Positions 23,592 through 55,266 of a stretch of DNA of 64,000 bases are shown piece by piece; the first letter of the stretch is position 1; each line of letters starts with the position of its first letter. The DNA is from Massilia sp. WG5. Its GTDB lineage: Bacteria; Pseudomonadota; Gammaproteobacteria; Burkholderiales; Burkholderiaceae_D. The stretch covers positions 2,604,001-2,668,000 of the forward strand of contig NZ_CP012640.2 in assembly GCF_001412595.2 (NCBI RefSeq). The letters are read 5' to 3'. The notes beneath the pieces are model-generated. The model did no database searches. It had not been told where the DNA came from and was given only the letters and a program-made list of their open reading frames with translations. The translations under genes and the position numbers were made by a program.

Positions 23592-26500
23592 GAAAGCAGA
23601 CCGTCGATTGCAGCCAGCAGCACGTCTTCCTGGAAGGGCTTGCCGAAATAGGCGTCCACGCCCAGGCCGATCGCATAGTTGCGGTGCTTGTCGGCCGTGC
23701 GCGAGGTGATCATGATGATCGGGATGGCCCGCGTGGCCTCGTTGTCGCGCAGGTTGCGGGTCAGGTCGAAGCCGTCCATGCGCGGCATCTCGATATCGAC
23801 CAGCATCAGGTCCGGGCGGGTCTCCGGCGCCTGCACCAGCTCCAGGGCCTCGACGCCGTCCTTGGCCTGCAGCACCCGGTAGCCTTCGCGCTCCAGCAGG
23901 CGCTGGGTCACGCGGCGCACGGTCAGCGAATCGTCGACCACCATCACGGTGGCGCGGTGCGCCGGCTGGGCCGGCATCGCCGGCTGCGGCGGGCGCTGCG
24001 TCTGTTCATGCACCGGCAACAGCAGCGGATTCAGGATCAGCACGATCTCGCCCGAGCCCAGCACGGTGGCGCCGGCGATGCCCGGCATGCGCGCCAGCTG
24101 CGGGCCGACATTCTTGACCACGACTTCGCGGTTGCCCAGCACTTCGTCGACCTGCAGCGCCAGGCGGTTGACGCCGGCGCCCAGCACCAGCACAGGCGCG
24201 GAACGCTGCGCCGCGACGCCGCCCGGCTCGTCCAGCAGCTCGGGCAGGTAGCGCAGCGGCACCGCCTCGCCCTGCACCTGGATCGCGCCGGCCGCGTGCG
24301 CGCCCGACAGCTCGGCCTCGCGCACCTGCAGCACCTGGCCGACCAGGTTGGCCGGCAGCGCATAGGTTTTCTGGCCGCTCCTGACCAGCACGACCTGGTT
24401 GACGGCCAGGGTCAGCGGCAGGTGAATGGTAAACGCCGCGCCCTTGCCGGCCTCGCTGGCCACCTCGACGCGGCCGCCCAGCGCGCGCGCCTCGGAACGC
24501 ACCACGTCCATGCCGACGCCCCGGCCGGCCAGTTCGGTCAGCGCATCGGCGGTCGAGAAGCCCGGTTCGAAGATCAGGTCGGCGACTTCGGGCTCGGAGG
24601 CCGACTCGCCGGCGCCCAGCAGGCCGGCCGCCGCGCCTTTCGCGCGGATGCGTTCCAGGTCCAGGCCGGCGCCGTCGTCGGCGAAGCGGATCTGCACCTC
24701 GTTGCCCTGCTGGCTGACCTGCACCAGCAGCTCGCCGGTTTCCGGCTTGCCGCTCTCGACGCGGCGCGCGCGCGCTTCGATGCCGTGCACGATGGCGTTG
24801 CGCAGCAGGTGTTCGAAGGGCGCCGCCATGCGTTCCAGCACGCTGCGGTCGATCTCGACCGCGCCGCCGCGGATGTCCAGGTTGACGCGCTTGTCGGTTT
24901 CCTTGGCGGTCTGGCGCGCGACCCGGAACAGGCGCTCGGACAGGCTGGCGAAGGGCACCATGCGCACCCGCATCAGGTCGCGCTGCAGTTCGCGCGTCAG
25001 GCGCGACTGCGCGGCCAGGTCGTCGACGGCGACATCCACCGTGCGGCTCAAGCCCTCGTGGAAGGAAGCGACGTCGTTGACGCTCTCGGCCATCATGCGG
25101 GTCAGTTCCTGCAGGCGCGTGAAGCGGTCGAATTCGAGCGGATCGAACTCGCGCTCGCCGGCGATCGACAGGCGCGAGGCGATCTGCGACTCGGCCTGCA
25201 TCTCGACCTCGCGCAACTGGCGGCGCAGGCGTCCGAGGTTGTCCGAGAAGTCGGCCAGCGCCGACTTCAGCGAGCCGACCTGGGTCTCCAGCTTGGAACG
25301 CGTGATCGACACTTCGCCGGCCTGGTTCACCAGGCGGTCGAGGATGTCGGCGCGCACCCGCACCAGCGGCGCGCGCACGTCCTGCTGGCGCCGGTCCTGC
25401 TGCGGCGCCTCGGCCGCCGGGGCGTGCGGCGCGGCCGGCATCGCGGCCTGGCCGTCCGGCTGCTGCAGCTGTTCGAACAGCAGCAGCGCCTGGTCGTAGT
25501 TGGCCAGCAGCTCGTCGAAGGCGGCCGGGCTGGTGGTGCCGGCGTGCAGCATGTTCTCGATCTGGGTTTCCAGCGCATGCGTGTGCTGGCCCAGGCGCAT
25601 CGCGCCGGCCATGCGGGCGCTGCCCTTCACCGTGTGCAGGGCGCGCAGCAGGCCGTGCGCGACGGTGTTCTCGGCCGGGTCCTGCTGCCACTGGCGCAGG
25701 TCCTTGCCGATCTGCGGCAGCAGGTCGGCCGCCTCTTCCATGAAGACCGGCAGCAGGTCCGGGTCCAGCTCGTCGGTGAAGACGGGCTCGGTGGCCAGCA
25801 CGGGTTCCGGCGCGGGTTCCAGCGAGGGCTCGGGCTCGGGCTCGGGCGCCGCGACGTCAGGCGCTTCCCGGATCGCCTCGGCGGCCGGCTCCGCGGCGGG
25901 TTCCGGCTCGGGCTCCGGTTCCGGCTCCGGTTCCGGCGCCGGCGCCACCGCCTGCTCCAGGCTCGGCGCGTCAAACGGATCGTCGAAATAGCTGTCGAAC
26001 AGGTCGTCGACGGCGGCCACGGCCGGATCCACCGGCTGCGGCTCGGCCGCGCGCAGGCCGGGCGCGGGCGCGTCCGGCTGCGCCTGCTCGAGGCTCAGCG
26101 GCAGCGCGCCGGCCGGCAGCGGCGGGTCGGCCAGGATGCTGTCGTAGGTCGCGGCGAACAAGGCGTCCAGGCGCTGCGCCAGCTCCGCGTCGGCGCCGTC
26201 GAACACGCTGTCGGCCTTCTTGCGGCCCAGCTCGTCGCGCAGGGCCTGCAGGCGCGCCAGCAGTTCCGGCTGCGCCGGCGCCAGCTCGCCCAGCGAGAAC
26301 ACCTGGCGCATGATGCGCACCCGCTCCACGGTCTCGTCGAGCAGCTGATGCTGTTCCTCGCCCAGCGGCGGCGTCGCCACCTGCAGCGCCTCCTCCAGCG
26401 CGAAGGCAATCTCGCGCAGCGCATGGAAGCCGACCGTGGCCGAGGTGCCGCCCAGCGTATGCGAGGCCTTCAACGCCTGCGCCGACACCCCGCGCAGGGG

Positions 26501-33077: not shown

Positions 33078-33196
33078 GGGAGCTTCCAGAACCGTAGCGA
33101 GCGGAAGCCGGCGCGTTCGGGAAGCGCAGCCGTACGTCCGGTACGGCGAGCATCGCAGAACGCGCCGGCGACGCGCAGTAGGTTCTGGAAGATCCC
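33078..33196 (+). ncRNA. Structured intergenic element, copy 1 (long helix with two conserved internal loops)
   Basis: This 119-nt element folds as one long stem. Outer helix 33078–33093 pairs with 33181–33196 (15 of 16 pairs). Middle helix 33108–33118 pairs perfectly with 33158–33168. The apical hairpin is 33131–33135 with 33141–33145. Between helices are fixed motifs shared with the copy at 46503–46624: GTAGCGAGCGGnAG (33094–33107), GAAGCGCAGC (33121–33130), GCGAGCATCGCA (33146–33157) and CrACGCGCAGyA (33169–33180). Helix sequences differ between copies but still pair. It sits 43 nt before the thiD-like start. Whether it acts as RNA, as single-stranded DNA or as a repeat is unknown. Confidence 0.7.
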
Positions 33197-45885: not shown

Positions 45886-46524
45886 ATGATCACGGACATG
45901 ATGCCAACGCCAAATGACGACCTCCAACAGTTGCGCGCGCGTATTGCTGCCACTGCCGCGCGCATGATCGCCCAGGATGGCGCCGACTATGCCACCGCCA
46001 AGGCCAAGGCCGCACGCCAGGTGCTGGGTGTCGATCGTCCCTCCCCCAATTATTTGCCGGACAATATCCAGGTCGAGGACGAAGTGCGCCGCTACCAGGC
46101 CCTGTTCCAGGGGCCGGCCCAGGCCGAGCGCCTGCAGCACCTGCGCAGCGCCGCCCTCGAGGTGATGGAGCAGCTGGCCGAGTTCCGGCCCTACCTCACC
46201 GGCGCCGTGCTGAGCGGCAGCGCGGGCGAGCACGACGACATCCACCTGCAGCTGTTCGCCGACAGCGCCAAGGAAGTCGAAATCTATCTGCTGAACCGCA
46301 ACGTCGACATCGACATCTCGGAAACGCCGCACTTCAAGGGCGGCCGCCACGAGCCGGTCGAGACCGTCAGCTTCCAGTGGAAGAAAGAGACGGTGCACGC
46401 CGAACTGTATGAAATGAACGACCTGCGCGGCGCCCTGAAACCGCGCGCCGATGGCCGCCTGCAACGCGTGGACGCGGCCGGCCTGCGCGCCCTGATGACC
46501 AATGAGAGCATTGAACAACCGTAG
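45886..46524 (+). CDS. Conserved hypothetical protein, nucleotidyltransferase-like
   Basis: This protein has about 212 aa and starts at MITDMMPTPNDD; ATGs at 45898 and 45901 are alternatives. The N-terminal half is helical (QLRARIAATAARMIAQDGAD). The C-terminal half contains TGAVLSGSAGEHDDIHLQLF, which resembles the GS-x-D-x-D site of the nucleotidyltransferase fold, followed by strands through ETVSFQWKKETVHAELYE. Homologues are widespread in Burkholderiales beside mpl, but no function is established. Its stop codon TAG is supplied by the structured element at 46503–46624, whose first helix arm is coding. Confidence 0.75.
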   Translation: MITDMMPTPNDDLQQLRARIAATAARMIAQDGADYATAKAKAARQVLGVDRPSPNYLPDNIQVEDEVRRYQALFQGPAQAERLQHLRSAALEVMEQLAEFRPYLTGAVLSGSAGEHDDIHLQLFADSAKEVEIYLLNRNVDIDISETPHFKGGRHEPVETVSFQWKKETVHAELYEMNDLRGALKPRADGRLQRVDAAGLRALMTNESIEQP

Positions 46525-46624
46525 CGAGCGGCAGCAATGCTGGTCGAGAAGCGCAGCTGTACAAATGTACAGCGAGCATCGCAGACCGGCAGTGCAACGC
46601 GCAGCAGGTTGTTCGATGCTCTCA
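46503..46624 (+). ncRNA. Structured intergenic element, copy 2
   Basis: This 122-nt element matches the layout of the one at 33078–33196. Outer helix 46503–46520 pairs with 46607–46624 (18 of 18, one G·U). Middle helix 46535–46545 pairs with 46584–46594 (10 of 11). The apical hairpin is 46558–46562 with 46567–46571. Conserved unpaired blocks are at 46521–46534, 46548–46557, 46572–46583 and 46595–46606. Helix sequences are unrelated to copy 1 while pairing is kept. The 5' arm lies inside the end of the upstream gene and the element ends 17 nt before the tlpA-like ATG. Confidence 0.7.
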
Positions 46625-53862: not shown

Positions 53863-55266
53863 TTACGGACGGCTGCTGGTCGGGAAAGGCCATGCTGCCG
53901 GTGCAACCACGGTCTTCGGGGACGACTGGGCTGCCGAGGCGCCGCTGTCCTGCTTGGCGTCGGTCTTGGTGTCTGCCTTGGCTTCCGGCTTGGCTTCCGC
54001 TTTCGCTTCCGGCTTGGCTTCCGGCTTCGCTTCAGCCTTCGGGGCGGCGGCTTTCTTGGCGGCCGGCTTGGCAGCCGGCTTGGCGGCGGCTTTCACTGCC
54101 GGCTTGGACTCGGCGGTCTTGGCGGCAGCGGTTTTGGTTGCAGCAACTTTGGTGGCCGGAGCCTTGGCAGCGGCGGTCTTGGTTGCAGCAGCCTTGGTAG
54201 CCGGGGCCTTGGCAGCAGCGGTCTTGGTTGCAGCAGCCTTGGTGGCCGGTGCCTTGGCAGCAGCAGTCTTGGTTGCGGCAGCTTTAGCCGGTGCTTTGGC
54301 GGCGGTCTTGCTTGCAGCAGCCTTGGCCGGTGCTTTGGCAGCAGCGGTCTTGGTCGCAGCAGCCTTGGCGCTCGTCTTCGGCATTGCCGAAGTCGAGCCC
54401 TTGGCGGCGGTCTTGCTTGCAGCAGCTTTCTTGGCCGGTGCTTTGGCAGCAGTCTTGCTTGCAGCAGCCTTGGCCGGTGCTTTAGCGGCGGTCTTGCTTG
54501 CAGCAGCTTTCTTGGCCGGTGCTTTGGCAGCGGTCTTGGTTGCAGCAGCTTTCTTGGCCGGCGCTTTAGCAGCGGTCTTGGTTGCAGCAGCTTTCTTGGC
54601 CGGTGCTTTGGCGGCGGTCTTGCTTGCTGCAGCTTTCTTTGCCGGTGCCTTGACGGCGGTTTTGCTTGCAGCGGTCTTGCTTGCTGCAGCTTTCTTTGCC
54701 GGTGCCTTGACGGCGGTTTTGCTTGCAGCGGTCTTGCTTGCTGCAGCTTTCTTTGCCGGTGCTTTGGCGGCGGTCTTGGTTGCAGCTGCTTTCTTTGCCG
54801 GTGCTTTAGCAGCGGTTTTGGTAGCTGCGGCTTTCTTGGCCGGTGCTTTTGCGGCGGCGGTCTTGCTTGCTGCAGCTTTCTTGGCCGGTGCTTTAGCGGC
54901 GGTCTTGGTTGCAGCGGTCTTGCTTGCTGCGGCTTTCTTTGCCGGTGCTTTAGCGGCGGTGGTCTTGGTTGCTGCAGCTTTCTTTGCTGCCGGCTTTGCT
55001 GCCGGTTTGGCGGCGGCTTTTGCTGCCGGCTTTGCAGCGGCTTTTGCTGCCGGTTTCGCAGCGGCTTTCGCTGCCGGCTTTGCGGCGGCTTTAGCAGCCG
55101 GTTTCGCTGCAGCTTTCGCTGCCGGCTTTGCGGCGGCTTTAGCAGCCGGTTTCGCTGCGGCTTTTGCTGCCGGCTTTGCGGCTACCGCTTTCTTGGCGGC
55201 GACGGGTTTTTCTGCTGCGGCCTTTGCGGCCGGCTTTGCTGCGGTTTTCTTAGCGGCTGTTGCCAT
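53863..55266 (-). CDS. Alanine/lysine-rich histone H1-like protein
   Basis: This is a highly basic, repetitive protein (467 aa) built mostly of Ala, Lys, Pro and Thr. Repeats are of KAAAKPAAK type near the N-terminus and KTAAKAPAKKAAAS type in the middle, as in eukaryotic H1 tails and AlgP/BpH1-like bacterial proteins. It probably binds DNA and compacts the nucleoid. A non-repeated block (KGSTSAMPKTSAK) interrupts the repeats. The C-terminus becomes acidic (KAEAKPEAKPEAKAE) and ends in AAWPFPTSSRP. The ATG at 55266 has AAGGAG 8 nt upstream; 19 in-frame codons before it are not repeat-like. A strong terminator follows. Confidence 0.88.
   Translation of the reverse strand: MATAAKKTAAKPAAKAAAEKPVAAKKAVAAKPAAKAAAKPAAKAAAKPAAKAAAKPAAKAAAKPAAKAAAKPAAKAAAKPAAKAAAKPAAKPAAKKAAATKTTAAKAPAKKAAASKTAATKTAAKAPAKKAAASKTAAAKAPAKKAAATKTAAKAPAKKAAATKTAAKAPAKKAAASKTAASKTAVKAPAKKAAASKTAASKTAVKAPAKKAAASKTAAKAPAKKAAATKTAAKAPAKKAAATKTAAKAPAKKAAASKTAAKAPAKAAASKTAAKAPAKKAAASKTAAKGSTSAMPKTSAKAAATKTAAAKAPAKAAASKTAAKAPAKAAATKTAAAKAPATKAAATKTAAAKAPATKAAATKTAAAKAPATKVAATKTAAAKTAESKPAVKAAAKPAAKPAAKKAAAPKAEAKPEAKPEAKAEAKPEAKADTKTDAKQDSGASAAQSSPKTVVAPAAWPFPTSSRP
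54614..54727 (-). repeat. Perfect 57-bp tandem duplication inside the histone-like gene
   Basis: Positions 54614–54670 and 54671–54727 are identical, encoding two identical 19-residue units (containing KTAASKTAVKAPAKKAAAS). The neighbouring repeats have diverged in codons, so this copy is probably recent, by slippage or unequal crossover. Confidence 0.85.

Follow-up and report, generated by a model that had tools for sequence, protein, structure and literature searches.

A dispersed family of mobile palindromic elements of about 120 nt with fixed internal loops and covarying stems

Two elements of about 120 nt lie on the + strand of a 64,000-nt stretch of the Massilia sp. WG5 genome, which was analysed as a whole and is referred to here as the window. 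They share conserved blocks, while the helices between the blocks differ in sequence and remain paired. The question that such a pair raises is what preserves the structure and what acts upon it. An earlier note, made from the sequence alone, took the elements for a selected structure and suggested a new structured RNA family, a leader element or a single-stranded DNA substrate. We examined the fold and its covariation, the distribution of further copies and their presence or absence at shared loci, and the position of the copies relative to genes, in order to weigh these readings against one another.

The two copies and their fold

Both copies could be confirmed from the sequence, each on the + strand and with its conserved blocks in the same order (Table 1). 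Their surroundings also agree with the earlier description once the genes are assigned by Pfam: copy 1 is flanked by divergent genes, with rubredoxin on the minus strand on one side and a thiD-like and then a hemL-like gene on the other, and copy 2 is followed by a TlpA/redoxin-like gene. The predicted gene to the left of copy 2, which is without a Pfam match, has its stop codon supplied by the element itself; relatives retain the ordinary end of this gene.

Table 1. Coordinates of the two copies and their parts in the window
Feature	Position	Strand	Basis or context
Copy 1, whole element	33078..33196	+	between divergent rubredoxin and thiD-like genes
Copy 1, left outer arm	33078..33093	+	sequence and fold
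Copy 1, outer internal loop, 5' strand, GTAGCGAGCGG	33094..33104	+	sequence and copy alignment
Copy 1, middle helix, left strand	33107..33118	+	sequence and fold
Copy 1, inner internal loop, 5' strand, GAAGCGCAGC	33121..33130	+	sequence comparison
Copy 1, apical hairpin	33129..33147	+	sequence and fold
Copy 1, inner internal loop, 3' strand, GCGAGCATCGCAG	33146..33158	+	sequence comparison
Copy 1, middle helix, right strand	33159..33169	+	sequence and fold
Copy 1, outer internal loop, 3' strand, GACGCGCAGTAGG	33170..33182	+	sequence and copy alignment
Copy 1, right outer arm	33181..33196	+	sequence and fold
Copy 2, whole element	46503..46624	+	between the end of a + strand gene and the TlpA-like gene
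Copy 2, left outer arm	46503..46520	+	read as altered C-terminus of the left gene
Copy 2, outer internal loop, 5' strand	46521..46531	+	contains the left gene's TAG stop (46522-46524)
Copy 2, inner internal loop, 5' strand	46548..46557	+	sequence comparison
Copy 2, inner internal loop, 3' strand	46572..46584	+	sequence comparison
Copy 2, right outer arm	46607..46624	+	sequence and fold

When the window was scanned with a covariance model derived from 30 copies of the own genome, copies 1 and 2 scored 134 and 136 bits respectively, values that are high by construction because the 30 copies include both. The opposite strands of the same two copies gave weak matches (37 and 33 bits), and we take a third match in the window, at 25593 (12.7 bits, E 0.47), to be noise. 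Folded with short flanks, copy 1 reached -82.6 kcal/mol (z -9.2) and copy 2 reached -73.3 kcal/mol (z -9.6), and none of 200 shuffles of either copy folded as well.

From the outside inward, the element begins with an outer stem of ~15 bp that terminates in AACC/GGTT and opens into an outer internal loop, GTAGCGAGC facing GCGCAGYAGG. A middle helix of ~10-13 bp separates this from the inner internal loop, in which GAAGCGCAGC faces GCGAGCATCGCAG and which encloses a 7-bp apical hairpin. Both internal loops are near-invariant and asymmetric, each with GCGAGC facing GCGCAG across the loop, and they stand in inverted orientation, so that in the alignment the element is roughly two-fold symmetric about its middle helix. 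There is also a variant class ~15 nt longer, with an additional hairpin, and a short variant that consists of a 43-nt core and resembles a deletion between two GCGAGC repeats.

The stems vary freely as long as they pair. Across the 30 own-genome copies, 96.4% of cells were paired and both sides had changed in 22 of 40 pairs. The covariation score of 0.425, against 0.147 (sd 0.009) after shuffling, was reached by none of 500 shuffles, and sliding the partner strand gave at most 0.098, although shuffles overstate the significance because related copies are not independent. A similar picture emerged from pairwise comparison of 8 bp of the middle helix at shared loci, which gave 59 both-side changes that were still paired, 20 one-side changes that were still paired and 11 changes that were unpaired, while of the positions unchanged on both sides 173 were paired and 1 was not; these comparisons overlap within a locus, and some loci may hold independent insertions.

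The two strands do not carry this pairing equally. In the middle 8 bp of 187 distinct copies with intact loops (short and decayed copies being left out), the 1496 cells comprised 1243 Watson-Crick pairs, 155 G.T, 7 A.C and 91 others, and among the 147 distinct middle helices G.T outnumbered A.C by 120 to 7. Thus, the + strand, as given in the earlier note, is the folding strand, on which pairing has been conserved. The given strand also outfolds its complement in 171 of the 187 copies when RNA parameters are used, an advantage that is largely a result of the G.T pairs. Within the 155 G.T cells the orientation was T.G in 140 and G.T in 15. Strand-biased mutation pressure would be expected to produce the two orientations about equally, and therefore it is simpler to suppose that pairing has been kept on the given strand and that the left arm favours T. 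Had the structure arisen as a cruciform or by template switching, no difference between the strands would be predicted. Taken together, the covariation and the excess of G.T over A.C support the earlier claim of a selected structure with compensatory change.

Distribution, mobility and the search for a mobiliser

Covariance-model searches gave many further copies. The own genome holds 46 (48 matches, less two weak opposite-strand matches of copies already counted); a strict pattern returned 12 copies there and the reversed pattern none, and blastn returned 42 pieces. A one-contig genome of another genus (G131) holds 47. Among 61 relatives, 33 had matches at E<=1e-4, made up of 30 of the 37 from the same genus and 3 of the 24 from other families of the order. 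Within the family, model matches occurred in at least 79 of 145 genomes and at least 32 of 44 genera, counts that are lower bounds because the scan scored at most 23 candidates per genome. At least 120 named loci were matched; among the matches listed are Massilia, Telluria, Janthinobacterium, Herbaspirillum and Ralstonia, and also Variovorax, Zoogloea, Thauera, Aromatoleum and the gammaproteobacterium Solimonas marina. Plasmid and phage records gave no match, and an exact-pattern search of viral contigs was likewise negative.

Copies occasionally lie in tandem with no genes between them (three at L191, two each at L133 and L188), and no cassette array was apparent from the copy positions in the own genome. 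As a separate observation, the strand of the elements in the own genome changes about halfway along the chromosome: 33 of the 46 fit a split into halves, and the best split accommodates 35 of 46, a figure equalled by 4 of 500 random sets. A replication-strand bias was considered and set aside; it was seen in the own genome alone, and in G131 there was no strand switch (23 of 47, counted by hand).

The earlier note knew of no named family with these motifs, and the Rfam searches are in accord with it. At E<=1 neither copy in the window was matched; the sole match lay elsewhere, at 54251-54369, and is a weak and probably chance resemblance to isrG (21.4 bits, where the cut-off is 100). At the same threshold, 20 loci (18 from the own genome, including that of copy 2, and 2 from another genus) gave two matches, one of which overlapped an element. 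This one, to mir-2830, scored 29.5 bits where the cut-off is 70 (E 0.078) and is put down to chance, which leaves no convincing Rfam family. Searches of the open-licence PMC literature listed nothing that was recognised as this element family.

The elements are mobile, as can be seen both from locus presence that varies between related species and from near-identical cores at unrelated loci. We compared the loci of copies 1 and 2 between the own genome and the best 29 of 60 further genomes. Copy 2 is absent from 28 of the 29 relatives, with the ordinary end of the gene in place, and the remaining one (G027) has a different element copy at nearly the same point. The locus of copy 1 holds an intact copy in 6 relatives and a decayed copy in 3; the other 20 lack the element, although some of them may retain remnants. 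Sites that are occupied in several species, as here, could reflect a long-kept function rather than movement. A check of 30 further own-genome loci in three close relatives, in which part of the queried loci could be judged, turned up empty sites, occupied sites and sites with other palindromes. A clear pairing of a filled with an empty site is seen at a gene end (L341 in G079 against L263 in G033), where the element stands between TGA and TCAGTC, and at L016 the insertion lies inside the loop of a terminator-like hairpin. Apparent target duplications, judged by eye at filled and empty sites, range from 0 to ~7 nt and look inconsistent.

In 38 pairs of copies at unrelated loci the cores were at least 95% identical. 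The middle helices of these pairs were 94% identical on average and the two outer arms 73% and 71%, so the outer arms diverge faster than the cores. The two arms vary together (r 0.76), with both arms below 60% identity in 8 pairs, one arm in 9 and neither in 21. Copying of the outer arms from the target was considered and rejected: it was hinted at by the left arm of copy 2 (NESIEQ against TDETLEQ), and was not borne out at the other loci with empty sites, which were checked by eye. Apart from this, palindromic repeats of the GTAGGGTGGGCACCCCGTGCCCAC and CGTCATTCCCGCG types are found in relatives (L343, L383, L345, L346 and L354) at the intergenic sites that hold the element in the own genome, at loci L028, L040 and L031.

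We looked for a mobiliser in several ways. A Y1/RAYT transposase was tried as a candidate and set aside: compared at family level, with subfamilies pooled, such genes are present in all 37 same-genus genomes, including 7 without element matches. They are missing from two of the three more distant genomes with element matches, and no element lies within ~1.5 kb of the three Y1 genes of the own genome. No recurrent mobile gene was found beside the element in open-frame clusters from 80 of the at least 120 named loci, for which the largest clusters were named. Among the ten largest, eight had representatives named by Pfam (ABC ATPase, response regulator, LysR, HDOD/EAL, Ala_racemase_N, T2SSE, PLD and metallophosphatase) and the other two had non-coding codon scores. 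Nor was an autonomous long form seen in 40 left-end stretches (2 from the own genome, 28 from G075 and 10 from G022), taken from a search of four genomes with a left-end pattern in which part of the hits was inspected and those of G033 were left out. These stretches proved to hold copies that were full, short or collapsed. The exceptions were two left ends, L399 and L411 in G075, for which no right end was present within 400 nt in the short stretch examined, so that a long form is possible there; the two solitary left ends of the own genome resemble collapsed copies.

Position relative to genes and stop codons

Codon-usage gene calls, from a model trained on the own genome and applied to the others, were available on both sides of 158 of the 187 copies; orthologous copies are included, so the counts that follow are not independent. 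Writing E for the element and arrowheads for the direction of its neighbours, the arrangements were <E< in 83, >E< in 35, >E> in 28 and <E> in 12. The commonest arrangement places the folded strand antisense to its two neighbours, and it is sense to both in only 28 of 158; this, along with locus presence that changes between related species, tells against the leader element suggested in the earlier note. More generally, we consider it quite unlikely that the element is a selected cis-acting RNA (a leader, a 3' UTR stabiliser or an attenuator) at work within a host transcript. Such an RNA would suit the strong fold and covariation, the RNA-like tolerance of G.U pairs and the location of both window copies upstream of a rightward gene. 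However, the gene that the element abuts usually lies antisense to the folded strand, the loci are occupied in some species and vacant in others, and Rfam offers no convincing counterpart.

The right-hand end of the element has a close relationship with stop codons. The right neighbour is directed towards the element in 118 of the 158 cases, and its stop lies -18 to +9 nt from the right end in 111 of these and -7 to +3 nt in 96; the other 40 right neighbours run away from the element, so the stop-abutting rule is not absolute. In 38 of the 118 the stop is 15 nt from the conserved core, and the stops used are TGA in 64, TAA in 33 and TAG in 21. For left neighbours running towards the element, the stop falls within -7 to +3 nt in 6 of 63. 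The commonest neighbour family accounts for 11 of 80 loci.

Convergent gene pairs allow the two ends to be compared at the same sites. In the 35 such pairs the element abuts the right gene in 29 and the left gene in 1, where random placing in the free spacer would be expected to give 12.1 on the right. This bears on the proposal that the element is an ordinary DNA relative of MITEs or REPs, whose arms are kept complementary by template switching and whose contact with stop codons is a matter of survivorship, a proposal that we regard as improbable. It gains from the other palindromic repeats that relatives have in the same intergenic sites, and from the description of REPs, in PMC3733652, as adjoining gene 3' ends and, for GTAG REPs, as often supplying the stop. 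Template switching should, however, also erase the mismatched loops, and it leaves the 120 to 7 ratio of G.T to A.C without a reason, while survivorship does not easily explain the difference between right and left in convergent pairs.

On the left, a flank logo of 59 copies revealed no conserved flank beyond the stem, merely 4-5 weak positions. An RNA acting in trans or as antisense, or an element of the SINE-like kind that moves at the RNA level, as a reverse-transcriptase passenger copied into DNA at gene ends, would account for the tolerance of G.U on one strand and for one end that is precise, at the stop codon, and another that is loose, but sits poorly with so weak a left flank and is likewise improbable. 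A loose (GTGTTAG)CGTAWC-like string was noticed just outside the hairpin at unrelated loci (L139, L246, L170 and L055, for example), and in the logo it is too weak for a conserved end.

We also asked how the genes themselves end. For 21 own-genome loci, 17 had a relative for comparison and 16 an element-free one (the relative of L029 carries a collapsed element). At 15 of the 16 the gene terminates at the same codon in all element-free relatives, the exception being L040. At 6 of the 15 (L021, L022, L028, L031, L033 and L039) the type of stop was unlike that of every element-free relative, and hence part of the stop codon may arrive with the element. Counter-cases to the end-codon rule are copy 2, which changed the end of the left-hand protein, and L043, where the stop lies inside the element. 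In a separate observation, copies with differing arms lie behind the same ABC-ATPase gene, ending in ITGRFG at L151, in two Massilia and one Herbaspirillum (L139, L151 and L160; stops TAG, TGA and TAA), which may represent either an old shared site or repeated targeting.

A folded single-strand substrate and its relation to known systems

The constancy of the loops beside the freedom of the stems, the restriction to one functional strand and the mobility all fit a folded single-strand substrate, and the elements look like parts moved by some machine rather than gene switches. We therefore lean, with rather more confidence than doubt, towards a non-autonomous mobile palindromic family of ~120 nt, REP-like or attC-like, that is recognised as a folded single strand, which may be DNA or RNA. 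A putative recombinase or transposase, acting in trans, would recognise the inverted pair of loop motifs in the single strand once it is folded and would move that strand, which would leave the stems free to take any sequence that pairs. Insertion may be directed to gene 3' ends in a single orientation, or it may be that only such insertions survive. The earlier note had itself raised, as grounds against its reading, a match to a known transposable palindrome family; the elements do behave as a family of transposable palindromes, but no known one was matched.

A more far-reaching form of the folded-strand reading, which we think unlikely, is that the family is a further kind of folded single-strand recombination substrate, beside attC and the ends of IS200/REP elements, in which a recombinase would read the inverted loops and place the element, in one orientation, immediately after the stop, with ordinary chromosomal genes becoming cassette-like units of a gene plus a folded site. 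If the elements are indeed moved as a folded strand to gene ends, they provide a direct way into how attC-like sites come to join ordinary genes, the attachment of such sites to genes being an old question about integron cassettes. If they are instead RNA, they form a strand-specific structured family of Betaproteobacteria that is missing from the Rfam release searched. On either reading, they supply many natural double mutants of a single fold, useful for mapping loops that are read by a protein.

Among known systems, attC sites are long imperfect hairpins with conserved unpaired features and free stem sequence, which lie behind a stop codon with the folded strand antisense to the gene, and the element resembles them in each of these respects. 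The foot of an attC site carries boxes of the consensus RYYYAAC ... GTTRRRY. Unlike attC, the element has the R-box pair of this consensus in 1 of 187 copies, and its copies are scattered, mostly single, behind ordinary genes. ERIC and similar repeats are dispersed, intergenic imperfect palindromes of ~120 bp, and are thus like the element in size, intergenic placement, palindromy and dispersal; we do not know of free stem covariation around fixed loops in ERIC.

REPs are the nearest known kind. In PMC3733652 and PMC2817692 they measure 20-40 bp, with stems of 5-13 bp, and the former places them near gene 3' ends, with GTAG REPs often providing a TAG stop. On this description, GTAG/CGTC-tagged REPs and the element are alike in being many dispersed intergenic palindromes, often near gene 3' ends. 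However, the size and tag position of REPs are not those of the element, which is ~120 nt long with several covarying stems and two conserved internal loops, and in which GTAG or GTCG sits inside an internal loop rather than as a tag at the foot. Also unlike REPs, the folded strand of the element is mostly fixed relative to the abutted gene, and the element showed no simple link here, at family level, to Y1 transposase genes. Finally, Table 1 of PMC2864571 contains a candidate motif from 2010, Burkholderiales-1, with ambiguous RNA nature and cis-regulation and no Rfam number. Compared by its table row alone, it shares with the element an occurrence in Burkholderiales and could be the same element. 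Unless it is already listed under that name, the element family is a new form among dispersed palindromes.
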